From IMG/VR virus record IMGVR_UViG_3300027770_000127, positions 1-37,313 of that record: a DNA stretch of 37,313 nucleotides. The stretch is one strand, 5' to 3'. The DNA comes from a virus. Below, in pieces: positions 330 through 31,578 of the stretch (its first letter is position 1; each line of letters begins with the position of its first letter). The notes under the pieces are model-generated. The model ran no database searches and was not told the DNA's origin. It saw only the letters and a program-made list of their open reading frames with translations. The position numbers were made by a program, and so were the translations under genes.

Positions 330-1760
330 ATGCCAACACTTAAAGTAAATGAAATTGTATCTTATAGTGGTAATACACTTACCATTGGTACTTCTACCGA
401 TACTGTTGTTTATACAGGAGGTATTGTTAAAGCTAGTACTATTCAAAATTCAAATTCAAGTAATTTAATTGTACAAACAAATACAACCACGATTACAATT
501 GGAACATCTGGTCAAACAGTAACTTTAGCTAGTGGTGCGAGTTCCTCTGGATTTGGTGCGACTTATAATAGCGGATTAAACTGGACTTCAACGTTAGTAA
601 CTTCAGCGTTAACAGTATCTTCTGGTACAGGATATTTTGTAAACACGTCAACAGCTGCTATAACAGTTACATTACCCGCTTCACCAACATTTGGAAGTAT
701 AGTAGGTATTAATGATTATTCAGGTTATGCTTCAACAAATAATATTACAGTTAATCCTAATGGAAATAAATTAGAAGGTGGAACTTTAAATAAAGTAATA
801 AATACAAATAAAGAATCAGTAATTTTAAATTATGTGGATTCAACACGTGGATGGTTACCAACGTCTGGAGTAAATAATGGCACAGATGCTTTATCACCAA
901 GTTCATATTCAGTAGATTTTTTAGTAATAGCGGGTGGGGGTGGTGGTGGATTTACTGGAGGAGCAGGTGGTGGAGCTGGAGGTTATAGAACATCTGCTGG
1001 AACATCAGGTGGTGGAGGAAGTGCAGAATCAAGCTTAAGTTTTATAGGAGGAAACACTTATACAATTACAATTGGTGCTGGAGGTGCTGGTGGTCGAGAG
1101 ACTCCTTCTATTACTGCATCAAATGGTGTTGATTCTTCAATTTCAGGAACAGGAATTACAACAATAACCTCAGCAGGTGGAGGTAGAGGAGGTTTTGGTA
1201 CAGTACTTGCAAATAGAACAGGTGCTAATGGTGGATCTGGAGGAGGTGGTGGAGGAAGACCATCAAGTTCATCAAGACCAGGAGGTTCTGGTACAGCAAA
1301 TCAAGGATATGGTGGAGGTAGTGGAACAAGTACTGATGAAAGTGTTGAAGGTGGTGGAGGCGGTGGAGGTGCTGGATCCGCTGGTTCTAATGGAACAAAT
1401 TCTGTAGGTGGTAATGGAGGTAATGGAGTTGCTTCAACAATTACAGGTTCTTCAGTTACAAGAGCAGGTGGGGGTGGAGGTGGTGGAGAAGCTATAACAG
1501 CAGGAACAGGTGGAACTGGTGGTGGAGGAAATGGAAGAAACTATCCAGATACAACACCAAGTGTTTCTGGAACTGCAAATACTGGAGGAGGAGGTGGAGG
1601 AGTTTATTCAGGAGAAGCTGGAACTGGAGGTTCTGGAGTTGTAATACTACGTATACCAACTGCTAGTTATTCAGGAACAACAACTGGTTCTCCAACAGTT
1701 TCTACATCTGGTTCAAATACAATTTTAACATATACTGGTTCAGGGAGTTACACAGCATAA
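330..1760 (+). CDS. Glycine-rich tail fibre/adhesin, copy 1
   Basis: A 476-aa protein. The N-terminal third is Thr/Ser-rich with beta-repeat-like stretches (TTTITIGTSGQTVTL), as in marine phage fibre shafts. From about residue 195 it becomes a run of glycine-rich blocks (GGGGGGG, GGAGGGAGG, GGNGGNG) separated by short Ser/Thr/Ala strands, resembling the polyglycine-II tips of T-even gp38-type adhesins. The last 35 residues (SGTTTGSPTV core) recur in the copy at 2112-3548. It starts immediately after the S74 gene stop and ends in a TAATG overlap with the next gene. The likely role is host receptor binding at the tail tip. That is inferred from composition and context; no catalytic motif is visible. 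Confidence 0.8.
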   Translation: MPTLKVNEIVSYSGNTLTIGTSTDTVVYTGGIVKASTIQNSNSSNLIVQTNTTTITIGTSGQTVTLASGASSSGFGATYNSGLNWTSTLVTSALTVSSGTGYFVNTSTAAITVTLPASPTFGSIVGINDYSGYASTNNITVNPNGNKLEGGTLNKVINTNKESVILNYVDSTRGWLPTSGVNNGTDALSPSSYSVDFLVIAGGGGGGFTGGAGGGAGGYRTSAGTSGGGGSAESSLSFIGGNTYTITIGAGGAGGRETPSITASNGVDSSISGTGITTITSAGGGRGGFGTVLANRTGANGGSGGGGGGRPSSSSRPGGSGTANQGYGGGSGTSTDESVEGGGGGGGAGSAGSNGTNSVGGNGGNGVASTITGSSVTRAGGGGGGGEAITAGTGGTGGGGNGRNYPDTTPSVSGTANTGGGGGGVYSGEAGTGGSGVVILRIPTASYSGTTTGSPTVSTSGSNTILTYTGSGSYTA

Positions 1761-2119
1761 TGGCACACTTTGCAAAATTAGGAGTAGGAAATATAGTTGA
1801 ACAAGTGATTGTAGTATCTAATGATATTGCAACTACTGAACAAGCTGGAGTAGATTTTATTAATAAACTTTATAATACAAGAGATGTTTGGAAACAAACT
1901 TCATACAATAATAATATTAGAAAAAACTTTGCAGGAATAGGTTATACTTACGATCAACAAAGAGATGCTTTCATTTCTAAAAAACCTTATAATAGTTGGA
2001 TATTAAACGAACAAACTTGTTTATGGGAATCTCCAGTACCTTATCCAAGTGATGCTTCAATTGATAAAAGATACCAATGGAACGAGCAAATTCAAAACTG
2101 GGAGTTGATCAATGGCTAG
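1760..2119 (+). CDS. Small tail-adhesin partner protein, copy 1
   Basis: A 119-aa protein beginning MAHFAKLGVGNIVEQVIVVS, a family I recognise from marine phages (T4-like cyanophages and relatives), where it sits beside fibre genes. It has conserved aromatic blocks (VWKQTSYNNN, FAGIGYTYD, PYNSWILNE, PVPYP). It starts in a TAATG overlap with the upstream adhesin and overlaps the next adhesin by 8 nt, so each adhesin is translationally coupled to one of these. Function is not established; a fibre-assembly or distal tail component is plausible. It is a close paralogue of 3552-3902. Confidence 0.8.
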   Translation: MAHFAKLGVGNIVEQVIVVSNDIATTEQAGVDFINKLYNTRDVWKQTSYNNNIRKNFAGIGYTYDQQRDAFISKKPYNSWILNEQTCLWESPVPYPSDASIDKRYQWNEQIQNWELING

Positions 2120-3548
2120 TATTATAAGAACAGACGCACTTCAGAATTTAAACACGACTAATGTTATCAGTCAAACAAATAGTACAACTATTACAGTTGG
2201 TGCTACTGGTCAAACTATTAAAACACCAGCAGGAGTTACATTACAAGTAGATACTATTCAAAATACAAATTCTACAACATTAATTACACAAACTAATGCT
2301 ACAACTATTACATTAGGAACATCAGGACAAACTATTGCAGTTGCATCAGGAGCTACTTTATTAGGTGGTGGAATTTCTTGGACTTCAACTGTAGTTACTT
2401 CTGCTATGACAGTAGCGGTTAATACAGGTTACTTTGTAAATACATCAGCGGCAACTATTACAGTAACTCTACCAGCTTCAGCTTCTGTTGGAAATACAAT
2501 TATACTTTCAGATTTTTATAGAACATGGGGAACAAACGCTTTAACTTTAAATCAAAATTCTTTAAAATTTCAAGGATATACTTCACCAAACCCAGTTTAT
2601 AATACTGCTGGGCAATCAGTACAATTAGTTTATTCAGGATCAACACAAGGTTGGATTCCAATATCAGACGATGATGTAACTAATGAAACATTACAAACTT
2701 ATTCCGCAGATTTTTTGGTAATTGCAGGTGGTGGTGCTGGAGGATATGACCAAGGTGGTGGAGGAGGTGCTGGTGGGTATCGTTCTTCTAATGCTACTTA
2801 TGGTTCTTCTGGTGGAGGAGGTAGTGCAGAATCAAGTTTAACATTTAATCCAGGAACAGTTTATACAGTAACAATAGGTGCAGGTGGTGCAGGTGTAACT
2901 TCTGGCGATTCAAATGCAGGTAACAATTCTTCAATATCAGGTACAGGAATAACAACAATAACATCTACTGCTGGTGGTAGAGGTGGAAGATATAATGTTT
3001 CTCCAAGCACAGCAACTTCGGGAGGAAGTGGAGGAGGTGGTGCTGGTAGTTCTGGTTCAAATTTAGCTGGTGGCTCTGGAACAGCAAATCAAGGTTATGC
3101 TGGAGGTACTGGTGTACCTGGTGCTGGTGCTGGTGGGGGAGGTGCTTCTGCTGTTGGTGGAAATGCTAGTACTAATACTGCTGGAAATGGTGGTAATGGT
3201 GTAGCTTCTACAATTACAGGTTCATCTGTTACAAGAGCAGGAGGAGGAGGTGGTAATGCTACTAGCAATACTGCTGGAACAGGCGGTTCTGGTGGTGGTG
3301 GAGCAGCTTCAAATACTCATTCTCCTGGTTCTAATGGTGGAGATGGTACAGCAAATACAGGAAGTGGAGGTGGAGGAACTTGGGACACTTCTTCTCCAGT
3401 AAGAACTGGAAATGGCGGTTCAGGAGTAGTAATACTTCGTATGCCAACAACTAATTATTCAGGAACAACAACAGGTTCTCCAACAGTTACAACATCAGGT
3501 GCAGACACAATATTAGTTTATAACGCATCAGGAACTTACACAGGATAA
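2112..3548 (+). CDS. Glycine-rich tail fibre/adhesin, copy 2
   Basis: A 478-aa paralogue of the protein at 330-1760. It has the same order: a Thr-rich shaft with repeated TTITxGxxGQTI segments, a middle domain with the same SWTST/YFVNTS and ITVTLPAS blocks, a glycine-rich region from about residue 200 and a near-identical C-terminus. The glycine-rich loops differ in length and sequence between copies while the flanks are conserved, as expected for diversified receptor-binding loops. A GGGAG sequence 8 nt before the ATG may act as ribosome binding site. Receptor binding is inferred. Confidence 0.8.
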   Translation: MASIIRTDALQNLNTTNVISQTNSTTITVGATGQTIKTPAGVTLQVDTIQNTNSTTLITQTNATTITLGTSGQTIAVASGATLLGGGISWTSTVVTSAMTVAVNTGYFVNTSAATITVTLPASASVGNTIILSDFYRTWGTNALTLNQNSLKFQGYTSPNPVYNTAGQSVQLVYSGSTQGWIPISDDDVTNETLQTYSADFLVIAGGGAGGYDQGGGGGAGGYRSSNATYGSSGGGGSAESSLTFNPGTVYTVTIGAGGAGVTSGDSNAGNNSSISGTGITTITSTAGGRGGRYNVSPSTATSGGSGGGGAGSSGSNLAGGSGTANQGYAGGTGVPGAGAGGGGASAVGGNASTNTAGNGGNGVASTITGSSVTRAGGGGGNATSNTAGTGGSGGGGAASNTHSPGSNGGDGTANTGSGGGGTWDTSSPVRTGNGGSGVVILRMPTTNYSGTTTGSPTVTTSGADTILVYNASGTYTG

Positions 3549-3551
3549 TTT

Positions 3552-3902
3552 ATGGCACACTTTGCAAAATTAGGAGTAGGAAATATAGTTGAACAAGTAA
3601 TCGTAGTATCTAATGATATTGCAATAACTGAACAAGCTGGTTCAGATTTTATTAATAAACTTTATAATACAAGAGATGTTTGGAAACAAACTTCTTATAA
3701 TGGAAACTTTAGAAAAAACTTTGCAGGAATAGGTTATCAATACGATCAAACAAGAGATGCTTTCATTCCACCTAAGCCTTATAATAGTTGGGTATTAAAT
3801 GAAAATACTTGTTTATGGGAAGCTCCAGTTGCTTATCCAACAGATAGCCAAAAATATAATTGGAATGAAACTACTAAAAATTGGGATTTACAACAATCTT
3901 AA
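3552..3902 (+). CDS. Small tail-adhesin partner protein, copy 2
   Basis: A 116-aa protein. Its first 18 residues are identical to the protein at 1760-2119 and most of the rest is conserved (VWKQTSYNGN, FAGIGYQYDQ, PYNSWVLNE). The DNA of the first 50 bases is also almost identical, pointing to recent duplication of an adhesin-plus-partner module. An AGGA sequence lies 6 nt before the ATG. Function is unknown; tail assembly or tip protein is inferred from constant pairing with the adhesin. Confidence 0.8.
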   Translation: MAHFAKLGVGNIVEQVIVVSNDIAITEQAGSDFINKLYNTRDVWKQTSYNGNFRKNFAGIGYQYDQTRDAFIPPKPYNSWVLNENTCLWEAPVAYPTDSQKYNWNETTKNWDLQQS

Positions 3903-3907
3903 TTTAG

Positions 3908-3929
3908 TATAATCAATCCTAATGATTGA
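3908..3929 (+). promoter_or_regulatory. TATAAT box and small hairpin at start of 2OG oxygenase gene
   Basis: A perfect TATAAT (3908-3913) lies 8 nt before the ATG at 3922, with only weak -35 candidates (TTTACA 3887, 15-nt spacer). A short inverted repeat (TCAATC/GATTGA, 3913-3918 and 3924-3929) spans the start codon. A transcript from this box would be leaderless or nearly so. Confidence 0.45.
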
Positions 3930-4539
3930 ATCCACAATAAACGGAATATTTCCAATACCTGTCTATATGTCAAAACTAGACAGAGAACTTACTAAAAAAG
4001 AATTATCATTTATTGATAAAACAAAATTAGATTTTTACAAAAACGAAGGTAATATTACTTCTAATGATAATTATATATTAAACCAAAAAGTATTTAGTTC
4101 ATTAAAAAAAGATTTATATTTAAGAGTAGAAGATTACTTTAAAAAAGTATTATCTTATACAGATGCAGTGACACCTTTTATTACACAATCTTGGTTAAAT
4201 TATACTGAAACAAATCAATATCATCATAAACATGAGCATCCTAATTCATTAGTATCAGGAGTGTTTTATGTTAATTGTCATGAAGAATTTGATAAAATAA
4301 AATTCTTTAAAAAAGATTCATATCAAGCTATTAAACCAGAAACTAAAGATTGGAATTTATACAATTCTGAAACTTGGTGGTTTACTGTAAAAACAGGAGA
4401 TATTATATTATTTCCATCTTCTTTAACTCATATGGTTGAAACTAAAGAAGGAGATAATACAAGAATTAGTCTAGCTTTTAATGTATTTATTAAAGGCACT
4501 ATTGGTAACAATAAGAATTTAACAGAGCTAATACTTTAG
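3922..4539 (+). CDS. 2OG-Fe(II) oxygenase superfamily protein (PF13759-like), copy 1
   Basis: A 205-aa putative 2-oxoglutarate/Fe(II)-dependent dioxygenase. The double-stranded beta-helix signature is readable: an HHKHEHP cluster at 101-107 (metal ligands likely among H102/H104/H106), then SGVFYVN, then GDIILFPSSLTH (distal His 170) and the 2OG-binding RISLAFN (Arg 181). Proteins of this family are frequent in marine phage tail regions. The substrate is unknown; hydroxylation of a tail or host-surface molecule is possible. It lies between adhesin modules, with its own TATAAT-like box. A second, divergent member is at 7165. Confidence 0.75.
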   Translation: MIESTINGIFPIPVYMSKLDRELTKKELSFIDKTKLDFYKNEGNITSNDNYILNQKVFSSLKKDLYLRVEDYFKKVLSYTDAVTPFITQSWLNYTETNQYHHKHEHPNSLVSGVFYVNCHEEFDKIKFFKKDSYQAIKPETKDWNLYNSETWWFTVKTGDIILFPSSLTHMVETKEGDNTRISLAFNVFIKGTIGNNKNLTELIL

Positions 4540-4557
4540 GCATCATTAACAATATGA

Positions 4558-4607
4558 TATAATTCTATATTGGGAGGGGTCTTCCACCTATACACCAACC
4601 CTTCCCA
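4558..4607 (+). promoter_or_regulatory. TATAAT box followed by a G/C-rich stem-loop
   Basis: TATAAT at 4558-4563 is followed 7 nt later by a 10-bp stem (4571-4580 with 4598-4607, one G-T pair, 17-nt loop). This is very G/C-rich for this genome. No T-run follows, so it could be either a 5' leader hairpin of the transcript for 4623 or a weak terminator of the upstream gene. A second possible box (TATAGG, 4609) is 8 nt before the ATG. Confidence 0.45.
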
Positions 4608-4622
4608 TTATAGGATTATTAT

Positions 4623-5501
4623 ATGTTTTTTGGCGCAACAGCATTTGCAGAAGCACCTTTTTCATCAGAAGGTATTATAAATCAAACCGTTGAGCTTACG
4701 GGGGTTAGTGCTGTAACAGCCATATCAGATGTTTCTACTTTTGTAGATGTAGATGTACAAATTTCTACAAATTTATTAACTATTACATCTGGTGATTTAT
4801 CTTTAATAGGTACAGCAACAGTAAATTTAGATACAAACTTATTAAATATATTCCAAGGTAACGTAGATCTTAATTTTGATGTTGCAATTAATGTAAGCAC
4901 AAATTTAATCCAATTCACTATTGATAGTGTAACAATTGAAGCTGGAGGAAATGTTTATATTGCTACAGGAGCAGAAGCAGCTCTCGTATCTACAGTTAAT
5001 GTAGTAGAAATTGATATTGCATTTGCAGAATTTTTAACAGGACAACAATTAAATTCAACTGTTAATAGTGTAGATGCTCAAGCAGTAAGTTTAATAGAGG
5101 TATCAACTAACTTACTACAAACTACAGTTAATACTGTAGTGGTTAATGCAGACGCTATAGTAGATGCTACTACTAATTTATTAACAGTTGCTTTAGGTGA
5201 TGAAAATACAATAGCTGATGCTAATGTAACTTTATCAACTAACTTATTACAATCTACAGTTGGAACTGCTCAAGGTACAGTATCCATAGATGTTAATGTT
5301 ACAGGAGTATCTTTAAATACAACTACAGGAACAGTAGTAATTAGTATTGGTGTAGAGCTTACTGGAGTACAAATGACAACTTATGTTAACTCTCCTTTGA
5401 TTATCTCTTGGGCCGTGGTTGATATAAACACTACAAATACATGGGCAACAGTAAGTACCAACACAACTAGTACTTGGTCGGTGGTTGATATTGCGGCTTA
5501 A
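4623..5501 (+). CDS. Repetitive tail/virion structural protein
   Basis: A 292-aa protein, almost entirely small polar and beta-branched residues, built of about six degenerate repeats centred on S/T-T-N-L-L/I (ISTNLL, LDTNLL, VSTNLI, VSTNLL, ATTNLL, LSTNLL) spaced roughly 30-45 residues. The end has two short Trp-containing repeats (TWATVSTNT, TWSVVDIAA). Such Val/Thr/Asn repeats suggest a beta-solenoid or fibrous shaft. No enzymatic motif is visible. Position among fibre genes supports a tail role; the exact function is unknown. Confidence 0.65.
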   Translation: MFFGATAFAEAPFSSEGIINQTVELTGVSAVTAISDVSTFVDVDVQISTNLLTITSGDLSLIGTATVNLDTNLLNIFQGNVDLNFDVAINVSTNLIQFTIDSVTIEAGGNVYIATGAEAALVSTVNVVEIDIAFAEFLTGQQLNSTVNSVDAQAVSLIEVSTNLLQTTVNTVVVNADAIVDATTNLLTVALGDENTIADANVTLSTNLLQSTVGTAQGTVSIDVNVTGVSLNTTTGTVVISIGVELTGVQMTTYVNSPLIISWAVVDINTTNTWATVSTNTTSTWSVVDIAA

Positions 5502-5513
5502 AACTAATATAAT
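5485..5513 (+). promoter_or_regulatory. Sigma70-like promoter, leaderless spacing
   Basis: TTGATA (5485-5490), a 17-bp spacer and TATAAT (5508-5513) make a near-consensus promoter. The ATG of the next gene is at 5523, 9 nt after the -10 box, so the mRNA would start at or next to the start codon. The -35 lies inside the end of the preceding gene. Confidence 0.6.
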
Positions 5514-5522
5514 AGCTTAATT

Positions 5523-6191
5523 ATGCCATCATCATATTCTACAGATCTTAAACTAGAGTTAATGGTTACGGGGGAAGCCTCTAACACATGGGGAGATAAA
5601 ACTAACTCTAATTGGAATTTAATACAACAAGCAGTTGCAGGTTATCAATCACTTGCTTTAACCTCAACAACTACAACGTTAGCAATGTCTAATGCAACTA
5701 TTTCTAATGCTAGAAATATGGTGCTTGAACTTACAGGAACATTATCAGCAAATTCTACAGTTAACTTACCAGATGGTATTGAAAAATTTTACGTTGTAAA
5801 AGATTCAGTAACTCATGGTGCGTATAGTTTAACTTTTAAAACAACTTCTGGATCAGGATTTACTACAGAAAACGGTAAAGCATATCTTGCTTATTCAGAT
5901 GGAACAAATATTAATGGAGTTAGTTTAACTAACTTAGGTGGAACTATCGGATCTGCACAAATAGATGATAGCGCTATTACTTCAGCTAAAATTAATGCAA
6001 CAGCAGTTACAACAGTTAAAATTGCAGATGGTGCAATTACAGCAACACAAATTACTTCTAACGCAGTTACTTCTGATAAAATTGCAAACGATGCAGTAAC
6101 AGCTAATAAATTACTTAGAAAATTTACAATTAGTACATCTAATCCAGCAGGCGGAGCTGATGGAGATCTTTGGTTTAAATATACAGCCTAA
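5523..6191 (+). CDS. Tail fibre protein with collagen-like/ITSAKI repeats
   Basis: A 222-aa protein. The N-terminus (LMVTGEASNTWGDKTNSNWN) is a recognisable fibre start in marine phages. The middle resembles a beta-rich shaft (TLSANSTVNLPDG, FYVVKDS). Residues about 140-195 are short repeats of the type D-x-AIT-x-x-KI, common in phage tail fibres. It ends GGADGDLWFKYTA, also typical. It lies 6 nt upstream of the next fibre gene. Role: structural part of the adsorption apparatus, inferred from repeats and neighbours. Confidence 0.75.
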   Translation: MPSSYSTDLKLELMVTGEASNTWGDKTNSNWNLIQQAVAGYQSLALTSTTTTLAMSNATISNARNMVLELTGTLSANSTVNLPDGIEKFYVVKDSVTHGAYSLTFKTTSGSGFTTENGKAYLAYSDGTNINGVSLTNLGGTIGSAQIDDSAITSAKINATAVTTVKIADGAITATQITSNAVTSDKIANDAVTANKLLRKFTISTSNPAGGADGDLWFKYTA

Positions 6192-6197
6192 TTAAAT

Positions 6198-7130
6198 ATG
6201 ACCGTAACTTCAGCAAATGTTTCGGGTACATTCAAAACAGTTACAGATATTTCAGGAAAGGTATCTGGAACTTGGAAATCCGTTGATGAAGGATATGCTA
6301 ACGTATCTGGAAATTGGAAAACAGTATTTATTGCATTTCAAGCAACATCATTTGTAACAGTTACAGGAACTTCTACAACTACAACAGTACCAACTGGAGC
6401 TAATGCTATTCATGTTCAAGCAGCTGTAGGTGGCGGCGGTGGTGGTAATATAGGTTGTGATTATGATAAAGCAGGTGGAGAATCAGCAGGAGCTGCTGGT
6501 GGATCGGGTGCTTATATATCAGATAAAATATTTTCAGTTATTGTTGGAGAAACTTTAACATTAAATGCTGGAACATACGGTGGTACAAATACTAGTAAAT
6601 TAAATGGTACAGCTGGTTCTGGTAATACTACTTCATTATCAGGATCTACAACAGGAAGTATATTTTCATTAACAGGTGGAGGCGGAGCATCTGGAACAGG
6701 TGGAGGTGGTCAAGGTCCAATTAGAACTAATACTGCAGGAACTGCTGGAATTTCAACTATTTCAGGAACTGCAATTACATCTGGATCTTTTAATCAATCA
6801 GGTGTTGTTGTAACTGTTTCAACATGTACAGGTGGACCTGTAGGAACTTTTAATCAATCAGGTAATGGAGCAGATGGTGGTAATAATGGAAATTGTGGTG
6901 GAGATAACTGTCAAATAGGTGGAAGTACTGGTGCAGCCTCTTATGCAGGAAATATTTCAGGAGGAGCAGGATCTCCTCAAGGACAAAACGTTAACGCTAC
7001 TGCAGGAACAAGAGGTTCTGGAGGTGGCGGTGGTGGAGCTCAATATGGTAATCAAGGATATGGTTTTTGTACACTGGGTGCTGTTGGTGGAAACGGTGAA
7101 ATTGTATACAGATTTCTAAGAGTTTCTTAA
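6198..7130 (+). CDS. Glycine-rich tail tip/adhesin protein, cysteine-containing
   Basis: A 310-aa protein. The N-terminal 55 residues contain three VSGxxKxV repeats (NVSGTFKTV, KVSGTWKSV, NVSGNWKTV). A glycine-rich domain follows from about residue 75, with poly-Gly runs, and ends MGxGGNGEIVYRF-like. Unlike the duplicated adhesins it contains several Cys (GCDYDKA, STCTGG, NCGGDNCQIG, FCTLG), which could form disulfides in the virion. Probably a tail-tip protein. No Shine-Dalgarno and only a 6-nt gap from the upstream gene, so co-expressed with it. Confidence 0.7.
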   Translation: MTVTSANVSGTFKTVTDISGKVSGTWKSVDEGYANVSGNWKTVFIAFQATSFVTVTGTSTTTTVPTGANAIHVQAAVGGGGGGNIGCDYDKAGGESAGAAGGSGAYISDKIFSVIVGETLTLNAGTYGGTNTSKLNGTAGSGNTTSLSGSTTGSIFSLTGGGGASGTGGGGQGPIRTNTAGTAGISTISGTAITSGSFNQSGVVVTVSTCTGGPVGTFNQSGNGADGGNNGNCGGDNCQIGGSTGAASYAGNISGGAGSPQGQNVNATAGTRGSGGGGGGAQYGNQGYGFCTLGAVGGNGEIVYRFLRVS

Positions 7131-7156
7131 TTGACTTTATTTAAATAAAGTATATT
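7131..7156 (+). promoter_or_regulatory. 18-bp perfect palindrome with TATATT box
   Basis: 7134-7151 is a perfect 18-bp palindrome (ACTTTATTT and its complement, no loop). TTGACT overlaps its left edge (7131) and TATATT (7151-7156) its right edge, with an unusual 14-nt spacer. The box is 8 nt before the ATG at 7165. This could be a protein-binding operator/promoter or an AT-only terminator hairpin for 6198-7130. Confidence 0.4.
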
Positions 7157-7164
7157 CATTAGTA

Positions 7165-7845
7165 ATGGGCAATATATCCAAGTGGTTTGGTAAAGCTATT
7201 TATATTACAGCTTTAGATAATTTTAAAGAAATTAATGAAGAAATAATTCCATTAATTAATAAAGAAATTACACCGACCAATATTCAGTATGCACGGACTA
7301 CGGACATTAAACCACATGAATTACAATCTATAAATGATGGTATCCACCGTGATGAAAGATTTAAAAAGTTATTTGATGCAATTCAACCAAAGATAATAGA
7401 AGCATTAGAAACCCAACATCTTAGTTTAGAATTATTAGAGGTTTATATAACTAAGGCTTGGGCAACGTTTGCTGTTAAAGATCAGTATATTCATTCGCAT
7501 AGACACATGGCTTCTCATTATAGTTTTGTTTATTATCCTTATGCAGAAGAACAAGGTGACTTAGTATTCCTAGATGATGAATTATGTAAAATTGGATTAA
7601 ACATTCCAGTAAGAAAAGAATACTTTAGTAAATTTACAGAAGTAAATTATGCAAGTGCAATCTACCCAGCTAAAACAGGAAACTTGATTGTATTTCCAAG
7701 TATGATATTTCATGAAACTCAAGTAAACACTACTAATAAACCTAGAATATCAATTTCTGGTGATATTATGCTAACAATGAAACCTAATGTTGTATCAGAG
7801 CACAATATACCAAGTCCTGCAACGTGGAAGAAATTAGGCTCTTAA
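7165..7845 (+). CDS. 2OG-Fe(II) oxygenase superfamily protein, copy 2
   Basis: A 226-aa protein, distantly similar in layout to 3922-4539: H-x-H cluster IHSHRH (H110, H112, H114), GDLVFLDD strand, TGNLIVFPSMIFHE (distal His 183) and the 2OG-binding basic residue in RISISGDI (Arg 194). The DxxxHxDE-like region is not obvious, so exact iron ligands are uncertain. The substrate is unknown; location between tail tip and nozzle genes suggests virion or surface modification. A heptamer repeat (7292-7305) is embedded, encoding ARTTD at residues 43-47. Confidence 0.7.
   Translation: MGNISKWFGKAIYITALDNFKEINEEIIPLINKEITPTNIQYARTTDIKPHELQSINDGIHRDERFKKLFDAIQPKIIEALETQHLSLELLEVYITKAWATFAVKDQYIHSHRHMASHYSFVYYPYAEEQGDLVFLDDELCKIGLNIPVRKEYFSKFTEVNYASAIYPAKTGNLIVFPSMIFHETQVNTTNKPRISISGDIMLTMKPNVVSEHNIPSPATWKKLGS
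7292..7305 (+). repeat. CACGG heptamer repeat, two units, relaxed
   Basis: CACGGAC TACGGAC, two 7-nt units in the same orientation, inside the oxygenase gene. A member of the dispersed heptamer family described in the findings. Confidence 0.5.
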
Positions 7846-7856
7846 TTTACTAGTGA

Positions 7857-7877
7857 GGTATTTTAGTATAAAATACC
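7857..7877 (+). promoter_or_regulatory. 9-bp stem-loop containing a TATAAA box
   Basis: GGTATTTTA (7857-7865) pairs perfectly with TAAAATACC (7869-7877) around a GTA loop. TATAAA (7867-7872) sits in the loop and right arm, 9 nt before the ATG at 7882. No -35 is visible. It may be a late-promoter element with dyad symmetry or a terminator of the upstream gene. Confidence 0.4.
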
Positions 7878-7881
7878 GAAT

Positions 7882-9831
7882 ATGCCTTTAGTTAAGATAC
7901 CATTAAAATCAGGGTTTAATAAACAAGCCACTGCTTCTCAAGCTATGGGCGAATGGATTGATGGTAATAACGTTAGATTTAGATATGGATCTCCTGAAAA
8001 ATTAGGGGGTTGGGAACAGATTACAGATAAATTAATAGCTGGCGCTGCAAGAGCACAATGGTCGTGGACCGATTTAACTGGCAGACGTTACGCGGCTCTC
8101 GGAACTAATAAATGTTTATATGTTTACGATGCAGATAGTTTATATGATATTACACCTTTAGATACAGACAGAACATTAACAAGCTGTACATTTACATCTA
8201 CAACAGGATCTAAAACAGTTACAGTTAATAAAGCTTCACATAATTTAGAAATTGGAGAATACATTTTATTTACTTCTGTAACATTACCAGGTGGTGGAGT
8301 AACTAGTTTTGTAGCTTCTGATTTTACAACAAATACATTTGAAATTATTTCAACTCCTACAAGTGGAACATTTACAATAACAATGGCTGTAACTGAAACA
8401 GGAACAGGAATGTCCTCTCAAGGATCAGCTACTACAACACCTTATGTTAATCCAGGTCCATTAGTTGCATCATTAGGATATGGTTGGGGAACAGGTACTT
8501 GGGGTTTATCTACGTGGGGAACACCAAGAACAACTTCTAATGCAACCATTGATGCAGCCGATTGGTCATTAGATAACTTTGGAGAAAATTTAATTGCAAC
8601 TGTTAAAAACGGCAAGACATTTATTTGGTATCCAGCAAGTGGTGCTGGAACTGCAAACAGAGCAACACTAATTCCAAATAACCCGACAGCTACTATTCAA
8701 ACTATAGTATCAGATAGAGATAGACATTTATTACATTTAGGAACAGAAACAGCTATTGGAAATCCTAATACTCAAGATCCAATGTTTATAAGATTTTCTG
8801 ATCAAGAAGATATTGAAGACTATGTACCAACTTCTACAAATACAGCGGGTACATTTAGATTAGATGACGGTACAACTATTGTTGGTGCCGTAAGAGCAAA
8901 AGATTATATATTAGTTATTACAGATACTGCAGCTTATACAATTCAATTTGTAGGGCCTCCTTATACATTCAGTATAAGAAAAGTAGGTTCTAATTGTGGA
9001 CTTATTGGTAAACATGCTTTAGCGTTCGTAAACGGAGCTGTTTGGTGGATGGGTGATTCTGGAGGATTTTTTAAATTTGATGGAACAGTTAGTGATGTAT
9101 CTTGTTTAGTAGAAGACTTTGTATTTAAAACTCTAGGTACGGACAATTTAGGAATTAACTTTTCACAAGGTTCACAAGTATATTGTGGATTAAATACTTT
9201 ATATACAGAAATAAATTGGTTCTATTGTAAAGCGGGAGTAACAAATATAGATAGAGTAGTTACGCTCAATTATGAAGAAAACTCATGGGTTACTGGAGAT
9301 TTAGCTAGAACTACATATGAAGATTCTAAAGTATTTAAATTTCCATATGCAACTAAATATGATACAACAGCTACACCAACAGTACCAACTATTAATGGAG
9401 CAACAGCTGGAGCTTCTTATTATTTCATTCAAGAAAAAGGTAAAAACGAAATTATAAATACAGGTGGAACTACAACTAACGCTATAGCTGCTTATGTTAG
9501 ATCAGGAGACTTTGAAATAGATCAGGATGGTAATGGAGAGTATTTCTTAAAGATTAGAAGATTTATACCAGATTTTAAAAACTTAGAAGGAAGTGCAGAC
9601 GTTACTATTTATTTAAGATCATATCCTGCAGATACAACAACTGTTAAAGGAGAGACATTTATAGGACCATTTACAATAGACACATCAACTGATAAAGTAG
9701 ATACTCGCGCTAGAGGAAGACTTGCTAGTATTAGAATAGATAGTGATGCTATAGATGATAACTGGCGCTACGGAATATTTAGAGTGGATATACAACAAGA
9801 TGGTCTTGGTGGTAGTTTCCCTCAAACATAA
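7882..9831 (+). CDS. Tail nozzle/stabilisation protein (P22 gp10-like)
   Basis: A 649-aa protein starting MPLVKIPLKSGFNKQATASQ and followed by a WIDGNNVRFRYGSPEKLGGW block, the hallmark of marine podovirus 'stabilisation protein' relatives of P22 gp10, a beta-propeller-like tail accessory factor that closes the portal channel. Repeated propeller-like elements follow (GRRYAALGTN, LYVYDADSLYDIT, TFIWYPASG, GFFKFDGTVSDVS). Residues about 95-180 look like an inserted Ig-like domain, which may explain why it is longer than gp10 (around 470 aa). It would plug DNA and attach fibres. The assignment is from motif memory; T7 gp12-like nozzle is the alternative name for the same role. Confidence 0.7.
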   Translation: MPLVKIPLKSGFNKQATASQAMGEWIDGNNVRFRYGSPEKLGGWEQITDKLIAGAARAQWSWTDLTGRRYAALGTNKCLYVYDADSLYDITPLDTDRTLTSCTFTSTTGSKTVTVNKASHNLEIGEYILFTSVTLPGGGVTSFVASDFTTNTFEIISTPTSGTFTITMAVTETGTGMSSQGSATTTPYVNPGPLVASLGYGWGTGTWGLSTWGTPRTTSNATIDAADWSLDNFGENLIATVKNGKTFIWYPASGAGTANRATLIPNNPTATIQTIVSDRDRHLLHLGTETAIGNPNTQDPMFIRFSDQEDIEDYVPTSTNTAGTFRLDDGTTIVGAVRAKDYILVITDTAAYTIQFVGPPYTFSIRKVGSNCGLIGKHALAFVNGAVWWMGDSGGFFKFDGTVSDVSCLVEDFVFKTLGTDNLGINFSQGSQVYCGLNTLYTEINWFYCKAGVTNIDRVVTLNYEENSWVTGDLARTTYEDSKVFKFPYATKYDTTATPTVPTINGATAGASYYFIQEKGKNEIINTGGTTTNAIAAYVRSGDFEIDQDGNGEYFLKIRRFIPDFKNLEGSADVTIYLRSYPADTTTVKGETFIGPFTIDTSTDKVDTRARGRLASIRIDSDAIDDNWRYGIFRVDIQQDGLGGSFPQT

Positions 9832-9833
9832 TT

Positions 9834-10031
9834 ATGGCTACATATAAATTTTATTATCTTATTTCTGGGAGTAATGGTATTCAACAAAAAGAATACATAT
9901 CTTCTTATAATATAAATCAAGTTAAACCTTATTTCTTAAGTGATACTCCTAATGTTACAGAAGTACGTAGGATTGATATATTGGCAGATCCAGACGGTAT
10001 CAATACAGATGAAGCTTTAGGATATAATTAA
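9834..10031 (+). CDS. Small virion-associated protein, unknown
   Basis: A 65-aa protein (MATYKFYYLISGSNGIQQKE start), 2 nt after the nozzle gene and overlapping the next gene by 1 nt (TAATG). No recognised domain; a mixed beta/alpha pattern and an acidic C-terminal half. Tight packing among tail genes suggests a small structural or assembly factor. I do not recognise the family. Confidence 0.65.
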   Translation: MATYKFYYLISGSNGIQQKEYISSYNINQVKPYFLSDTPNVTEVRRIDILADPDGINTDEALGYN

Positions 10032-10210
10032 TGGCAAAAATTAATTTATACATACCAGAACCTAGAGAACCTTATACTGTTGATAACTTTAGACAAATTA
10101 ATCAAGTATTAGAAACTTTACAAAATCAATTAAATACAACTTTTCAAGAAGATTTAAATGAAGAGCTACAAGCATTTAACTGGTTTTTAATTGGAAGCGG
10201 TGCAGAATGA
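10031..10210 (+). CDS. Small tail-region protein, 59 aa
   Basis: The ORF runs from ATG at 10031 (TAATG overlap with the upstream stop) to TGA at 10208-10210, which overlaps the next ATG (ATGA). The protein MAKINLYIPEPREPYTVDNF... has a helical, Gln/Asn/Glu-rich middle (NFRQINQVLETLQNQL) and ends FNWFLIGSGAE. Both junctions are classic translational-coupling overlaps, so I regard it as real although it is short. Function unknown. Confidence 0.75.
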   Translation: MAKINLYIPEPREPYTVDNFRQINQVLETLQNQLNTTFQEDLNEELQAFNWFLIGSGAE

Positions 10211-10542
10211 CAATAGAATATAAAAGTCAAACTTATAGATTAGCCACAACAAATTTAACTACCACACTTACAGTTAATGCAACAACTAGAACAATTGTAA
10301 AAGAAATTAGTGTTTCAAATATACATAATAATACAGTAGATTGTAATTTTTATTTAAATAAAACTAATGGAAGTGCTATATTTTATCATGTCAAAGTAGC
10401 TGCAGATTCTCATGATAATGCTGTACATAATACTTTAGTATTAGAAGAAAGTGATTATTTAACTTTTCAAGCTAATGTATCTAATGTAGTATCAGGACAA
10501 ATTTCTTATGCTTTATTAAGTAGAAAAAATCAGAATGGCTAG
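10207..10542 (+). CDS. Small beta-rich virion protein, unknown
   Basis: A 111-aa protein, Thr/Asn-rich with alternating hydrophobic residues (TIVKEISVSNI, CNFYLNKTNG, YLTFQANVSN), consistent with a beta-sandwich. Such proteins in this position in marine phages are usually annotated as hypothetical tail or decoration proteins. It overlaps both neighbours (4 nt upstream, 8 nt downstream). No specific function can be assigned. Confidence 0.7.
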   Translation: MTIEYKSQTYRLATTNLTTTLTVNATTRTIVKEISVSNIHNNTVDCNFYLNKTNGSAIFYHVKVAADSHDNAVHNTLVLEESDYLTFQANVSNVVSGQISYALLSRKNQNG

Positions 10543-10666
10543 AAAAGTAAGTAACGGTTCAGGAGCCTTTGTTAAGCATACCAATAAAAAAAGACCAGGC
10601 AGACACTCAAAAAGTCCAAATAAAAGAAATGACCATAAAGAATATCGTGGACAAGGTAGACGATAA
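10535..10666 (+). CDS. Small very basic protein, 43 aa
   Basis: ATG at 10535 overlaps the end of the previous gene by 8 nt; TAA at 10664-10666. The protein starts MARKVSNGSGAFVKHTNKKR and ends RGQGRR. About 16 of 43 residues are Lys, Arg or His, with almost no hydrophobic core. It is likely a nucleic-acid-binding or intrinsically disordered virion protein. Small basic proteins of this kind are common in pelagiphage-like tail regions (from memory). Confidence 0.75.
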   Translation: MARKVSNGSGAFVKHTNKKRPGRHSKSPNKRNDHKEYRGQGRR

Positions 10667-10677
10667 TAGTATATATT
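10648..10677 (+). promoter_or_regulatory. Sigma70-like promoter, leaderless spacing
   Basis: TGGACA (10648-10653), an 18-bp spacer and TATATT (10672-10677). The ATG of the next gene is at 10685, only 7 nt after the -10, so the transcript would be leaderless. It overlaps the end of the basic-protein gene. Confidence 0.5.
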
Positions 10678-10684
10678 AAAGTTT

Positions 10685-10906
10685 ATGGATTATAAAACAA
10701 TAATAGTAGATGGGGTAGAGGTTCCAGTTCTTCCTGCAAAAGCAGAAGAAACAATATTAAATAAAATTACAGGACAAACATACGCAACTATTGATGAATT
10801 TCATGCAGATGTGGCTGACCCTAGTACGCCTACTAAAGCAGAAGATTTACAAAGAGATTTAAAAATAACAGTTGCATCTTTACAGGTTATTGGTAAAACT
10901 AAATAA
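10685..10906 (+). CDS. Small unknown protein upstream of glycosyltransferases
   Basis: A 73-aa protein (MDYKTIIVDGVEVPVLPAKA start) with a central acidic segment and a basic end. The central TGQTYATIDEFHADV reads like a small structural domain. The stop overlaps the next ATG (TAATG at 10904-10908), so it is coupled to the glycosyltransferase gene. No known function. Confidence 0.65.
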   Translation: MDYKTIIVDGVEVPVLPAKAEETILNKITGQTYATIDEFHADVADPSTPTKAEDLQRDLKITVASLQVIGKTK

Positions 10907-11823
10907 TGCAGCCGTTTGGTGGAACTGAAATACAATTAGCGTATTTAAAAAAATACGTATCTAAAGATTTATTTTCTAAAATTAAATTAGAACTATCCGT
11001 ACCAGAAAGAAGTCCTGTAGTTATAGATAAAACTAATGTTCTATGGATTCAAAACAGTTACGATCAACCTAATCTTCATCCTTGGTTTAAGAACAAATTA
11101 AATCACGGTAAATATGATTGGTATGTATTCAATTCTCATTGGGTATATGAGAAGTATAGATACTTCTTTGATATTCCAACAGATCAATCTTTAGTCATTA
11201 AGAATGGATTTACTGATGATCTAGTATTAAAAAAAGATTTTAAACGTAAAGATAAAATTAAATTAGTTTATACTTCAACTCCTTGGCGAGGACTTGATGT
11301 TTTATTAGATGCTATGGAATTAGTTAAATCTGATAAAGTAGAACTAGATGTATATTCAAGCACACAAATATATGGGGATCAATTCAAAGAACAAGCTGAT
11401 GATCAATACAAACCTTTGTATGATAAAGCTAGAAATCTAAAGAATGTTAATTATAAAGGTTATTGTCATCACGATGAATTAGTAAAAATACTTCATACCT
11501 ATGATGTATTTGTTTATCCTAATACTTGGGAAGAAACTTCATGTATCGCGGCCATTGAAGCGTTAGCCTGTGGACTCGTAGCAGTGACCACGGACCTCGG
11601 TGCTTTATACGAGACCTGCGCAGATTTTCCAATCTATATACCTTATCTAAAAGACAAGAAGAAACTAGCAAATCAATTTACATATGTAATAGAGTCTTTA
11701 CCTGAAGTATTAAATAATATAGAAGAAGATAAATTAAAGTTTCAAATGCAATACTATAAACAGTTTTATCATTGGGACATTATTAAAGGAAATTGGGAAA
11801 ATTTTTTAAATGGCATCAAGTAA
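10906..11823 (+). CDS. GT-B (family 4-like) glycosyltransferase
   Basis: A 305-aa protein. The C-terminal Rossmann half carries GT4 hallmarks: LVYTSTPWRGLDVLLDA, then YDVFVYPNTWEETSCIAAIEAL with the E-x7-E motif at E210/E218 that binds the nucleotide-sugar donor, then GLVAVTTDLGAL. The N-terminus starts at GGTEIQL, lacking a first beta strand, so the acceptor domain is short compared with typical GT4 enzymes (about 350-400 aa). It would transfer a sugar to a phage protein, phage DNA or host glycan. A retaining mechanism is expected for the family. It overlaps the following glycosyltransferase by 14 nt. Confidence 0.8.
   Translation: MQPFGGTEIQLAYLKKYVSKDLFSKIKLELSVPERSPVVIDKTNVLWIQNSYDQPNLHPWFKNKLNHGKYDWYVFNSHWVYEKYRYFFDIPTDQSLVIKNGFTDDLVLKKDFKRKDKIKLVYTSTPWRGLDVLLDAMELVKSDKVELDVYSSTQIYGDQFKEQADDQYKPLYDKARNLKNVNYKGYCHHDELVKILHTYDVFVYPNTWEETSCIAAIEALACGLVAVTTDLGALYETCADFPIYIPYLKDKKKLANQFTYVIESLPEVLNNIEEDKLKFQMQYYKQFYHWDIIKGNWENFLNGIK
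11588..11600 (+). repeat. CACGG heptamer repeat, relaxed
   Basis: CCACGGA CCTCGG, two units of the 7-nt repeat with one mismatch, inside the glycosyltransferase gene and in a locally GC-rich stretch. Confidence 0.35.
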
Positions 11824-12637
11824 AGATATAAGATTATTTGTAGGTACTCCAGTTCATTCAGAGGTTTCAATTCATTATTTTAAAGCTTCATTAGAATTTC
11901 AAAAAGAATGTTACGTTAGAAAAATACCTATAATGTTTCAGGTAATGAAAAGTAGTTTAGTTACACAGGGGAGACAGTTATGTGTATCTGCTTTTTTATC
12001 TTCTCAGTGTACTCATTTATTGTTTGTAGATTCTGATATTGCATATTCATATAAAATGTTTGAAAAAATGGTTAACTATGACAAAGATATTTGTATGGTT
12101 CCTTATCCAATTAAATCTATAGACTTTGAAAAAATTAAAAAGAAAATTGAAACTGGTTCTACACTAGATCCAATGTTATTAGGTAATCAATATACAATGT
12201 CTATTACAGATTCTAAAAACATAAAAATTGAAAATGGTTTTATAGAAGTTGAAAGAGGACCTGCTGGATTTATGTTAATTAAAAGAGAAGCTATTAAAAA
12301 ATTAATAAAAGAATACCCAGAGTTTACAATTAAACAACATACATTAATTGATGGTAAATTAGTTGAAAGAGAAAACATGTATAATTTCTTTGATACCTAT
12401 TGGGATCCAAATGAAAAAACTTATACTGGAGAAGACTTTTATTTCTGTAAATTAGCTAAACATGCTGGTATTAAAATGTATGCTTTAGTTGATGAATACA
12501 TATCTCATTATGGAGAATTTGGTTATACAGGTAGATTAATTGATGAATTTATAGTTACAGAAGATAAAGCTGAAGTACCAGGCACTATTATCAATAGTGA
12601 TATAGATCCTAAAGACCTAGAAAAATCAGATAAATAG
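11810..12637 (+). CDS. GT-A-type glycosyltransferase
   Basis: A 275-aa protein. An N-terminal beta strand (IRLFVGTPVHSEVS) is followed by a helical stretch and LLFVDSDIAY, where D74-S75-D76 is the metal/nucleotide-sugar DxD motif of GT-A enzymes. ERGPAGFMLIKREAI and TGEDFYFCKLAKHAG match the acceptor-side and ED catalytic-base regions. It pairs with the GT-B enzyme upstream, suggesting two-step glycosylation of one target. The target is not deducible; virion tail decoration is inferred from location. Confidence 0.75.
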   Translation: MASSKDIRLFVGTPVHSEVSIHYFKASLEFQKECYVRKIPIMFQVMKSSLVTQGRQLCVSAFLSSQCTHLLFVDSDIAYSYKMFEKMVNYDKDICMVPYPIKSIDFEKIKKKIETGSTLDPMLLGNQYTMSITDSKNIKIENGFIEVERGPAGFMLIKREAIKKLIKEYPEFTIKQHTLIDGKLVERENMYNFFDTYWDPNEKTYTGEDFYFCKLAKHAGIKMYALVDEYISHYGEFGYTGRLIDEFIVTEDKAEVPGTIINSDIDPKDLEKSDK

Positions 12638-12668
12638 CAACGATATTGTACATATTTCATTAATTAGT

Positions 12669-12693
12669 TATAATAACATTTAGTTAACTAAAT
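12669..12693 (+). promoter_or_regulatory. TATAAT box followed by 16-bp palindrome
   Basis: TATAAT (12669-12674) is followed 3 nt later by a perfect 16-bp palindrome (ATTTAGTT and its complement, 12678-12693), just before the ATG at 12701. This is the only intergenic gap between the glycosyltransferases and the internal-virion genes. No clear -35. Confidence 0.45.
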
Positions 12694-12700
12694 TAAAAAT

Positions 12701-13750
12701 ATGGATCCATTTACAATCGCTTTAGCCGTATTTGGCGTACAAAAATTAAGAGGACAATCTACAGGTAAATCATTTCGAGACGCATTACTAGCGGCTACAG
12801 GAGCACAAGCTCTTTCCGCTACTTCAGTAGGAGCTGATTTAGGTATTAAAGGTTTTACATTAGGACAAGAAGGATCTTTTTTAGGATCTCTTGGGCCAAG
12901 TGCAAACGCTGCAAATTCTTTAGCTTACGATGCTGCAACATCAGCAGCAGGTAACACAGGAATTATGAGTCAGTTCGGACAAACAGCAGTTGGACAAGGT
13001 ATAAGTTCTTTATATGGTTCACCAGGAACACCAGCAGTAACAGGAATACCTGAACAAACTTACAGAGAAGCTATAACAGATAAAACTACAGGAGCTCTTT
13101 TACAACCAGAGAGAGCGTATCAAGCAGCAGTACCTGCGCAGGCAGCAGTACCAGCAACAGGATACCAAGCTCTTTCACCAACTGAAAAATTAATTACAGG
13201 AGCAGTTGCATTACCTACAGTTGCAGCAGCATTTCAAGATACACCAGAACCAGAAAAAGCTGGATACACAGATGAAGAATATAAAAAAGCTTACGCAGAA
13301 CAATCAGAAAGTTTAAAAAATTTAAGAAATACAGCTAAACCAACTTATACATCAATGAGTCCATATAATTATGGTCAAGGTTCTATGTACACATTTAATC
13401 AAGGTGGTATTGTAAATGCATTACCAAGATTTGCAGTTGGCGGAGTTAACTACATGCCATCAAAAATTACACACGATGAGAATGATGTCTATAACTACAT
13501 TAGAGCTTCAGGATACGTGGAAGATGGATCAGGTACAGGTGAAAAAGATACAGATACTATTCTTGCACAATTAGCAGATGGAGAATTTGTGTCTCGTACT
13601 GATGCTGTTTTAGGTGCTGGGATTATGGCAGGTGCATCACCAAATAATATGAAAGAAATGAGAAAATTAGGTGCTTCGTACTTCTATGATCAACAAGCTA
13701 AATTTAAAAGAATATTTGATTTATTAGATGCAAGCAGAAAGACTAATTGA
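12701..13750 (+). CDS. Internal virion-type protein with LADGEFV motif
   Basis: A 349-aa protein. The N-terminal half is Ala/Gly/Ser-rich and low complexity with possible amphipathic helices (FRDALLAATGAQALSATSVG). The C-terminal part has NQGGIVNALPRFAVGGVNY and then DTILAQLADGEFVSRTDAV, a GG-box/DGEF combination found in internal or ejection proteins of marine podoviruses (from memory). It ends in a charged helix. It overlaps the next gene by 23 nt. Likely packaged in the head and ejected with DNA; this is inferred from composition and position. Confidence 0.6.
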   Translation: MDPFTIALAVFGVQKLRGQSTGKSFRDALLAATGAQALSATSVGADLGIKGFTLGQEGSFLGSLGPSANAANSLAYDAATSAAGNTGIMSQFGQTAVGQGISSLYGSPGTPAVTGIPEQTYREAITDKTTGALLQPERAYQAAVPAQAAVPATGYQALSPTEKLITGAVALPTVAAAFQDTPEPEKAGYTDEEYKKAYAEQSESLKNLRNTAKPTYTSMSPYNYGQGSMYTFNQGGIVNALPRFAVGGVNYMPSKITHDENDVYNYIRASGYVEDGSGTGEKDTDTILAQLADGEFVSRTDAVLGAGIMAGASPNNMKEMRKLGASYFYDQQAKFKRIFDLLDASRKTN

Positions 13751-19176: not shown

Positions 19177-19896
19177 ATGAAACTTATTAGAGAAGATACT
19201 AGTTTTATTGTCACTGACTTTACAAGGGTGGACAAATACCAATACACTAAATATTTAAGAGACGATGACCACGGCCCACGGACCTATCTCGTTGGGGAAA
19301 AGAAAGTTCCATCCGTTACTACAATATTGTCAAAGACATCTTCCAAAGAAAAGCAGGCTTCCTTAGATGCTTGGAGAGCTAGAATAGGTTATCAAGAAGC
19401 TCAAGCTATAACCACACAGGCCGCTAATAGAGGCACGGAGATGCATTATGTTCTTGAGAACTATATGAACGGTGTTGGATACTTAAACCTAAGCTCTAAA
19501 GGGGCTCAATCAAGGATTATGGCCCATAAGATCATAGAGAATCTAGAACCATTAAAGATTATATATGGAAATGAGGTTAGCCTTGCTTATAATGATCAGT
19601 GGGCAGGATCCACAGACCTTGTGGGTAACTTTGATGGCAAGGATACTATTATAGATTTTAAACAAGCAAATAAACTAAAAAGAGAAGATTGGATTGAAGA
19701 TTATTATTATCAAATCGCTGCCTACTCTCTTGCTCATAAAAAGAACTATGGAAACATAGAACAGGGTCTGATTTGTATTTGTACTAAGGATGGAGTATAT
19801 CAGCAATTTAAAATGGATCAAAAAAAACTTTTAGAATATGAGGGCAAGTGGTTTGACAGAGTTCAAAAATATCATACAATGTCAGTCAATGGATAA
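19177..19896 (+). CDS. PD-(D/E)XK superfamily exonuclease (RecB/Cas4-like)
   Basis: A 239-aa protein. Nuclease motifs in order: VPSVTTILS (about 44-52), RGTEMHYVLE (85-94, the His/Glu-bearing motif I), EVSLAYND, GSTDLVGN with D147, and IIDFKQ with D160 and K162 as the D-(x)n-DxK active site, followed by DYYYQIAAYSLAH (the conserved Gln/Tyr helix). The length suits a single-domain phage exonuclease. A role in host DNA degradation or replication/recombination end processing is expected. The heptamer repeat at 19270 encodes residues HGPRT. It overlaps speD by 8 nt. Confidence 0.8.
   Translation: MKLIREDTSFIVTDFTRVDKYQYTKYLRDDDHGPRTYLVGEKKVPSVTTILSKTSSKEKQASLDAWRARIGYQEAQAITTQAANRGTEMHYVLENYMNGVGYLNLSSKGAQSRIMAHKIIENLEPLKIIYGNEVSLAYNDQWAGSTDLVGNFDGKDTIIDFKQANKLKREDWIEDYYYQIAAYSLAHKKNYGNIEQGLICICTKDGVYQQFKMDQKKLLEYEGKWFDRVQKYHTMSVNG
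19270..19284 (+). repeat. CACGG heptamer repeat, two exact cores
   Basis: CACGGCCCACGGACC: two CACGG cores 7 nt apart followed by ACC, as at 13963. It lies in the exonuclease gene in a different codon phase from the 13963 copy. Confidence 0.6.
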
Positions 19897-20279: not shown

Positions 20280-20309
20280 TTGAAATCCTCTAACTAATTA
20301 CTATATAAT
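20280..20309 (+). promoter_or_regulatory. Sigma70-like promoter for hsp20
   Basis: TTGAAA (20280-20285), 18-bp spacer, TATAAT (20304-20309). A G-rich imperfect hairpin (CACC/GGTG, about 20321-20333) lies in the 5' leader. A good Shine-Dalgarno AAGGAG (20357-20362) precedes the ATG at 20369. The leader is about 50 nt, unlike the leaderless tail genes. Confidence 0.6.
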
Positions 20310-31443: not shown

Positions 31444-31578
31444 ATGGCTAAAAAAAAAGAAACAATTCAAGACATCCTAGATAGAATCAATGAAGACATT
31501 GAGAATATCAGAGAAAAAGTTGAGATTTTAGAATCTGAAGAAGATTCTGATTTTGATGACGAAGAAGACGAAGAATAA
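31444..31578 (+). CDS. 44-aa coiled-coil protein with acidic tail
   Basis: ATG at 31444 with a strong SD (AAGGAG, 31433-31438, 5 nt spacing); TAA at 31576-31578. MAKKKETIQDILDRINEDIE is a basic-start helix, then ENIREKVEILESEED coiled coil, and the last 13 residues are mostly Asp/Glu. Acidic-tailed small proteins can act as DNA mimics or bind basic proteins; not shown here. Last gene of the + operon. Confidence 0.75.
   Translation: MAKKKETIQDILDRINEDIENIREKVEILESEEDSDFDDEEDEE

Follow-up and report, generated by a model that had tools for sequence, protein, structure and literature searches.

The 37,313-bp virus contig IMGVR_UViG_3300027770_000127 (the whole stretch analyzed, hereafter the window) carries, in its tail region, five genes that begin a few nucleotides (nt) downstream of a TATAAT-like box. 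Designating genes by the position of their start codon, we consider it likely, on the basis of sequence comparison among related phages, that gene 7882, which encodes a virion stabilization protein, gene 5523, which encodes a tail-fiber-like protein, and probably also genes 3922, 7165 and 10685 have their own sigma70-type promoters, with a -10 box 5 to 11 nt before the ATG and leaderless or nearly leaderless mRNAs. The promoter of 7882 would be that of an operon head, at the border of an exchangeable gene cassette.

The window represents part of the genome of a marine phage whose relatives HTVC023P (about 61 kb) and HTVC027P (about 58 kb) infect Pelagibacter, of the abundant SAR11 bacteria. 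Its stabilization protein is 51 to 55% identical to those of both phages, and the HTVC023P order of tail fiber, oxygenase, stabilization, glycosyltransferase and 12701 genes is matched in the window. By the gene content and order common to HTVC023P and HTVC027P, the window phage can be classified as an HTVC023P-type pelagiphage. The original prediction, drawn from the window sequence, was that five TATAAT-like boxes end 7 to 9 nt before the ATG of these genes, with no Shine-Dalgarno (SD) sequence. All five boxes are indeed in place (Table 1), and an SD of at least 4 nt is found at 0/5 of the genes.

Probable promoter elements upstream of gene 7882 and its orthologs

PHROG 3287 (virion structural protein) is the family matched by the 7882 product, which some relatives list as stabilization protein. 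We collected 79 orthologs (55 to 100% identity); clustering them according to what lies upstream of the box gave 28 contexts. A near box, that is, TATAAT with at most one mismatch and a spacer of 5 to 11 nt to the ATG, is present in 27 of the 28 contexts (1000 shuffles: mean 7.5, maximum 15), and an exact TATAAT is present in 21 (mean 0.96, maximum 5). When contexts are anchored on the box, a T is found at -23 in 26/27, and TTTA occurs exactly at -23 in 16/27 and hardly at other offsets; this upstream element is independent of the anchoring, in which it was not used. Several contexts also have a TG one base before the box, as in extended -10 promoters. In the window itself, the -35 geometry favors the TAAAAT register of the box, paired with TTTACT, over the alternative TATAAA (Table 1).

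The start codon is ATG in 79/79 orthologs, which is weak evidence as most phage genes start likewise. No SD is seen in 20 of the 28 contexts, and the remaining 8 have only AAGG, AGGT or GAGGT. A wrongly assigned start codon was considered and dropped, since alignments with homologs of other phages begin at residue 1 to 4. Among distant homologs (DSL-LC04, CRP-902, Pag-Yong1 and 023Pt_psg01), gaps of 0 to 24 nt precede the gene; in Pag-Yong1, the one whose upstream sequence was read, there is no box. A perfect inverted repeat at 7857-7877, GGTATTTTA-GTA-TAAAATACC, overlaps the -10 box of 7882, and one relative (L006) shows a compensatory change in it (GATATTTTA/TAAAATATC). This repeat is a possible operator or hairpin and is restricted to close relatives.

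The ortholog in HTVC027P is gp75 (ATG at 43798). Its clade comprises 80 loci with 57 distinct upstream sequences, which share CTTTCAT and TATATAa at a fixed distance from the ATG. The element reads TTTCAT-N17-TATAAN-N7-ATG, which is the geometry found at 7882, and the box is present in 12/12 contexts. At 69 of 71 loci of this clade, the upstream neighbor is divergent, with a median gap of 47 nt; there is therefore no read-through from a co-directional gene, and the gene needs a promoter of its own. As positioned, this conserved promoter would permit a few nt of leader at most, and it makes what we regard as the strongest argument ahead of transcript mapping for a leaderless or nearly leaderless transcript. 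The alternative that CTTTCAT serves the divergent gene was dropped, because its distance to that gene varies (gaps of 21 to 562 nt) and its distance to the plus-strand ATG is fixed.

The surroundings of the gene differ sharply on its two sides. Upstream, where the neighbor is co-directional at 69/72 loci of the window's clade, we counted 20 protein families in that clade and 13 in the HTVC027P clade; downstream, there are 3 and 2 families, respectively, with a median overlap of 1 nt. The predicted 7882 promoter marks the border between a swappable upstream cassette and a conserved downstream operon.

Gene 5523 and three further genes

Orthologs of 5523 that have an exact near TATAAT, including that of HTVC023P, carry TTGATA or TTGATC exactly 17 bp upstream of it, and the intervening bases differ. 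More distant orthologs have an AAAGGA or AGGAG SD, and their box is farther upstream or absent. At 3922, three upstream contexts preserve the sequence TTTACAACAA.CTTAATTTA.TATAAT; in other orthologs, the box is 14 nt away or missing. At 7165, two contexts preserve AATTGACTTTATTT.AATAAAGTATAT; in another lineage, TATAGT or a variant of it lies 5 to 6 nt ahead of the ATG. A palindrome, ACTTTATTTAAATAAAGT, is also found before 7165 (7133-7150) and kept in two upstream contexts; some relatives carry TTTATTTCAATAAA at this place, which breaks the perfect symmetry.

Taken together, these comparisons argue strongly for a conserved promoter at 7882 and 5523, moderately at 3922 and 7165, and weakly at 10685. 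Conservation of the box-to-ATG spacing in relatives had been put forward as a check of the original prediction: spacing is conserved for 7882 and 5523, within a range of 5 to 11 nt and not at one fixed value.

Table 1. Putative promoter elements, contrasting elements and genes in the window
Positions	Strand	Feature	Remarks
7846-7851	+	-35-like TTTACT of 7882 promoter	17 bp from -10 box
7869-7874	+	-10 box TAAAAT of 7882 promoter	Spacer 7 nt to ATG; alternative register TATAAA 7867-7872, spacer 9 nt
5485-5490	+	-35 TTGATA of 5523 promoter	Within last codons of gene 4623; N17 to -10
5508-5513	+	-10 TATAAT of 5523 promoter	Spacer 9 nt; 11/12 consensus match
3887-3892	+	Possible -35 TTTACA of 3922 promoter	N15 (short spacing)
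3908-3913	+	-10 TATAAT of 3922 promoter	Spacer 8 nt
7151-7156	+	-10-like TATATT of 7165	Spacer 8 nt; TTGACT 7131-7136 only 14 bp away
10672-10677	+	-10-like TATATT of 10685	Spacer 7 nt; TGGACA 10648-10653, N18
4558-4563	+	Contrast: extended TATAAT (TGATATAAT) of gene 4623	Leader of about 50 nt downstream
4571-4607	+	Contrast: conserved stem-loop in 4623 leader
20304-20309	+	Contrast: TATAAT of 20369	TTGAAA 20280-20285, N18; SD-containing leader of about 55 nt
3922-4539	+	2OG-Fe(II) oxygenase gene
5523-6191	+	Tail-fiber-like protein gene
7165-7845	+	2OG-Fe(II) oxygenase gene
7882-9831	+	Virion stabilization/structural protein gene, PHROG 3287	Head of conserved downstream operon
10685-10906	+	Small protein gene, no family match

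Several observations weigh against this interpretation. The last base of the -10 box in the HTVC027P clade is usually G or C, not T. One of the 27 box contexts of 7882 (L011) should be discounted, as its TACAAT lies in the coding end of the abutting upstream gene; in L011, L012, L013, L014, L031, L039 and L043 alike, the upstream gene abuts the 7882 start and there is no intergenic promoter. The 16 to 18 bp spacing of sigma70 promoters is seen at 7882 and 5523 (17 bp) and at 10685 (18 bp); at 7165, where it is poor (14 bp), and at 3922 (15 bp), it is not, and the 10685 box is conserved only among close relatives. Spacers of 10 to 11 nt predict a leader of 2 to 4 nt, not zero, and the 5' ends of the transcripts are in all cases predictions from promoter geometry. 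Finally, a search of bacterial genomes with the 7882 protein returned no match, so that we infer the host of the window phage solely from its relatives.

No Rfam match or tRNA was found in the window. Positions 330-3902 hold a tandem duplication of two gene pairs, each encoding a glycine-rich protein (476 and 478 amino acids) and a small protein (119 and 116 amino acids), and the starts of the copies are nearly identical (MAHFAKLGVGNIVEQ).

Predicted start sites and the host machinery

The elements TTTANN or TTGATA, a 17-bp spacing and TATAAT would be recognized by the ordinary sigma70-type polymerase of the host. The original prediction placed the sigma70 start at the ATG itself. The box stands as a conserved promoter element close to the start codon; with sigma70 RNA polymerase starting 6 to 9 nt after the -10 box, standard geometry would have transcription begin on the A of the ATG or no more than about 4 nt ahead of it, and the resulting mRNA would be translated independently of an SD. 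Defining a leaderless gene as one with a leader of at most 5 nt, the box position, the lack of an SD and the AUG start all agree with such a gene, and the start position would follow.

A sigma70 region-2 domain (Pfam Sigma70_r2) was found neither in the window nor in HTVC023P, HTVC027P or four long relatives. HTVC027P has been reported to lack its own RNA polymerase and to rely on that of its host, and a strand-specific RNA-seq series exists for HTCC1062 cells infected by this phage (PRJNA1253180, PMC12753301). In two SAR11 single-cell genomes (G014 and G016), an SD of at least 4 nt precedes 17 to 19% of genes that follow an intergenic gap (gap genes), versus 45 to 49% in the phages; the host must thus use SD-independent translation widely. 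An exact TATAAT at a spacer of 5 to 11 nt is found at 3.7 to 4.0% of SAR11 gap genes versus 0.5 to 3.5% at other distances, an enrichment too slight for us to claim that the host favors leaderless genes. From 50 TATAAT sites of the host, we obtained a base profile too noisy for a -35 to be defined.

Why would a promoter lie at the start codon?

The 7882 promoter would drive a conserved tail operon from its first gene, at the border with an exchangeable upstream cassette. Fused to the start codon, it would travel with the operon whatever gene is inserted in front and in whatever orientation. We may tentatively hypothesize that it forms a portable operon boundary, by which the tail operon, having no leader to lose, would stay expressed while recombination exchanges or inverts the genes upstream (fibers, 2OG-Fe oxygenases and others), and that it has been kept throughout an abundant marine phage group.

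A rather unlikely explanation, yet one that deserves attention, is that these are real promoters which evolved for the compactness of packed genomes and not for insulation of an operon from cassette exchange. The upstream stop codon abuts the box in many contexts (TAGTATAAT), and the -35 of 5523 lies inside the upstream coding sequence, as compaction would have it. However, compaction is no general rule, given that leaders and SDs are found at many other gap genes of these genomes, and many gaps before 7882 orthologs measure 40 to 100 nt, a length at which space is not limiting.

It is improbable that the boxes are instead A+T-rich elements of translation or of the mRNA, acting on long polycistronic transcripts by way of an unstructured start region or S1-type binding. 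Such a role would suit a host in which SD-less, A+T-rich starts are usual, and the mostly co-directional upstream genes of the window's clade (see above); but A+T-richness leaves unexplained the near-perfect TATAAT, a -35 whose distance is fixed at 17 bp, and the recurrence of this geometry beside a divergent neighbor.

Chance is an explanation to which we give little credence overall, although a near-TATAAT 5 to 11 nt from the ATG is expected for some genes at 32% G+C. Hexamers with at most one mismatch to TATAAT make up 3.4% of positions in these gaps and are thus common. The original prediction had also omitted three gap genes of the same region, 4623, 12701 and 19177, which have no good near box: TATAAT lies 59 nt upstream of 4623 and 26 nt upstream of 12701, and 19177 has only TCTAAT. 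With these included, the late gap genes number 8; dinucleotide shuffles of the window give 1.7 near boxes among them on average, and 5 or more with P about 0.014. Counting all 6 hits, with the TCTAAT at 19177, the binomial P falls between 4e-4 and 4e-6, according to the background chosen. Scanning positions 3500-13000 for generic sigma70 promoters returned 43 sites versus 51.8 expected, that is, no excess, its top-scoring site (11/12 consensus) being the 5523 promoter. Generic scanning, like a position weight matrix trained on the 7882 relatives, has no power in this A+T-rich window, as top hits are mostly intragenic, and both were abandoned. We also kept the anticorrelation between SDs and near boxes out of the evidence, since the two compete for the same bases. 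Hence the near-box excess in the window alone is modest and suggestive, and the relatives are decisive. Chance would fit 10685 and 7165, which are poorly spaced or not conserved beyond close relatives; it is excluded for 7882 and 5523 by the 27/28 contexts of the former and the fixed 17-bp spacing of the latter.

Leadered genes in the same genomes

Gene 4623, in the tail region, has the putative promoter TTTAGG-N17-TGATATAAT. Its leader (4558-4622) contains a stem, GGGAGGGGU/ACCCUUCCC, that is near-unchanged in 21 viral contigs and three upstream contexts, and one contig (L596) shows a compensatory change, GGGAAAGGU/ACCUUUCCC. The 4623 protein varies (39 to 100% identity) while its leader stays near-constant. 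The leader looks like a 5'-terminal stem-loop and matches no Rfam family. At 12701, a palindrome, TTTAGTTAACTAAA (12679-12692), lies downstream of the TATAAT and ahead of the ATG, and its core, TAGTTAACTA, is kept in relatives. One promoter type serves leadered genes (4623 and the SD-led 20369) as well as near-box genes; the distance to the ATG alone differs.

The original prediction read the near-box genes as one half of a two-class system in which early genes are SD-led and late genes leaderless. The SDs that it named are all present: aaaggag at 20369, aggaggt at 22429, aaggag at 22977, aggag at 26973 and aaaggag at 31444. The capsid module falls outside the 37-kb fragment, which puts any claim about late genes as a class beyond the reach of the window alone. 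Relatives, however, carry strong SDs at their capsid-region genes, which are late genes of the classic kind. In HTVC023P, SDs precede the capsid gene, the GroES-adjacent gp37, gp39, gp41, gp42 and gp57, and the same holds in HTVC027P; in four long related contigs, the capsid-region genes found next to gaps have SDs as well. Several replication genes of the window that the original prediction had passed over, among them 23814, 25327 and 30929, have no SD. Surveying 464 distinct gap genes, we found exact near boxes in a few families only: 7882 (34/47), 5523 (11/26), 3922 (2/6), gp63 (5/6) and gp51 (1/4); the 133 unassigned gap genes have none. In 5/6 relatives, gp63 (at 41989 in HTVC023P) or its ortholog is preceded by a TATAAT that runs straight into AGGAG; were this box the promoter, the start site would cut off the SD.

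A temporal programme with late genes leaderless as a class and early genes SD-led is very improbable: it would suit the layout of the window, in which the five near-box genes are tail-region genes and the five genes named for their SDs belong to the replication and small-gene regions, but it fails on the SD-led capsid-region and GroES genes of relatives, the confinement of near boxes to few families, the SD-less replication genes, the structured leader of tail gene 4623 and the switch of distant 5523 orthologs to SDs.

Comparison with known systems

Bacterial leaderless genes carry a TATAAT-type signal whose first T lies about 12 bp ahead of the start codon (Zheng et al. 2011, PMC3160421); the same survey reports a TG before the box for low-GC genomes and also names phage lambda. 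The genes described here share with them a near TATAAT (11 to 17 bp by this count), the lack of an SD and the ATG start. That study is a statistical survey of cellular genomes, whereas ours concerns a few phage genes, conservation across exchanged upstream contexts and predicted starts. In the Alphaproteobacterium Zymomonas mobilis, 119 pairs of transcription start sites and genes have leaders of at most 5 nt (PMC7566282). The leaders of 0 to 4 nt predicted here under sigma70-type promoters are comparable, and SAR11 belongs to the same bacterial class, although the Zymomonas leaders were mapped experimentally. We found no start-site map for SAR11.

The classic leaderless phage mRNA is that of phage lambda cI, which starts at the ATG. 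It comes from the repressor gene of a temperate phage, whereas the genes treated here, in a relative of HTVC023P-type pelagiphages, have virion and auxiliary roles. Late promoters of the T4 type (TATAAATA) are directed by the phage sigma factor gp55 and have no -35. They resemble the present elements in placing a -10-like box close before virion genes, but differ from them in that we observe TATAAT and a conserved -35 at 17 bp, and find no sigma-like gene; we therefore do not class the elements as T4-type. Pelagiphage genes described as leaderless were not found in the open-licence literature searched. Leaderless genes with a Pribnow box at such a distance are already known in bacteria, and the pelagiphage case adds unusually clear comparative support.

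The SD/no-SD contrast in a single genome fragment should not be taken for temporal regulation. The 7882 locus illustrates how a conserved operon may stay expressed beside a hypervariable cassette. With its start site predictable, a promoter conserved across the whole family would provide a concrete and cheaply testable case of a leaderless virion gene in SAR11 phages.

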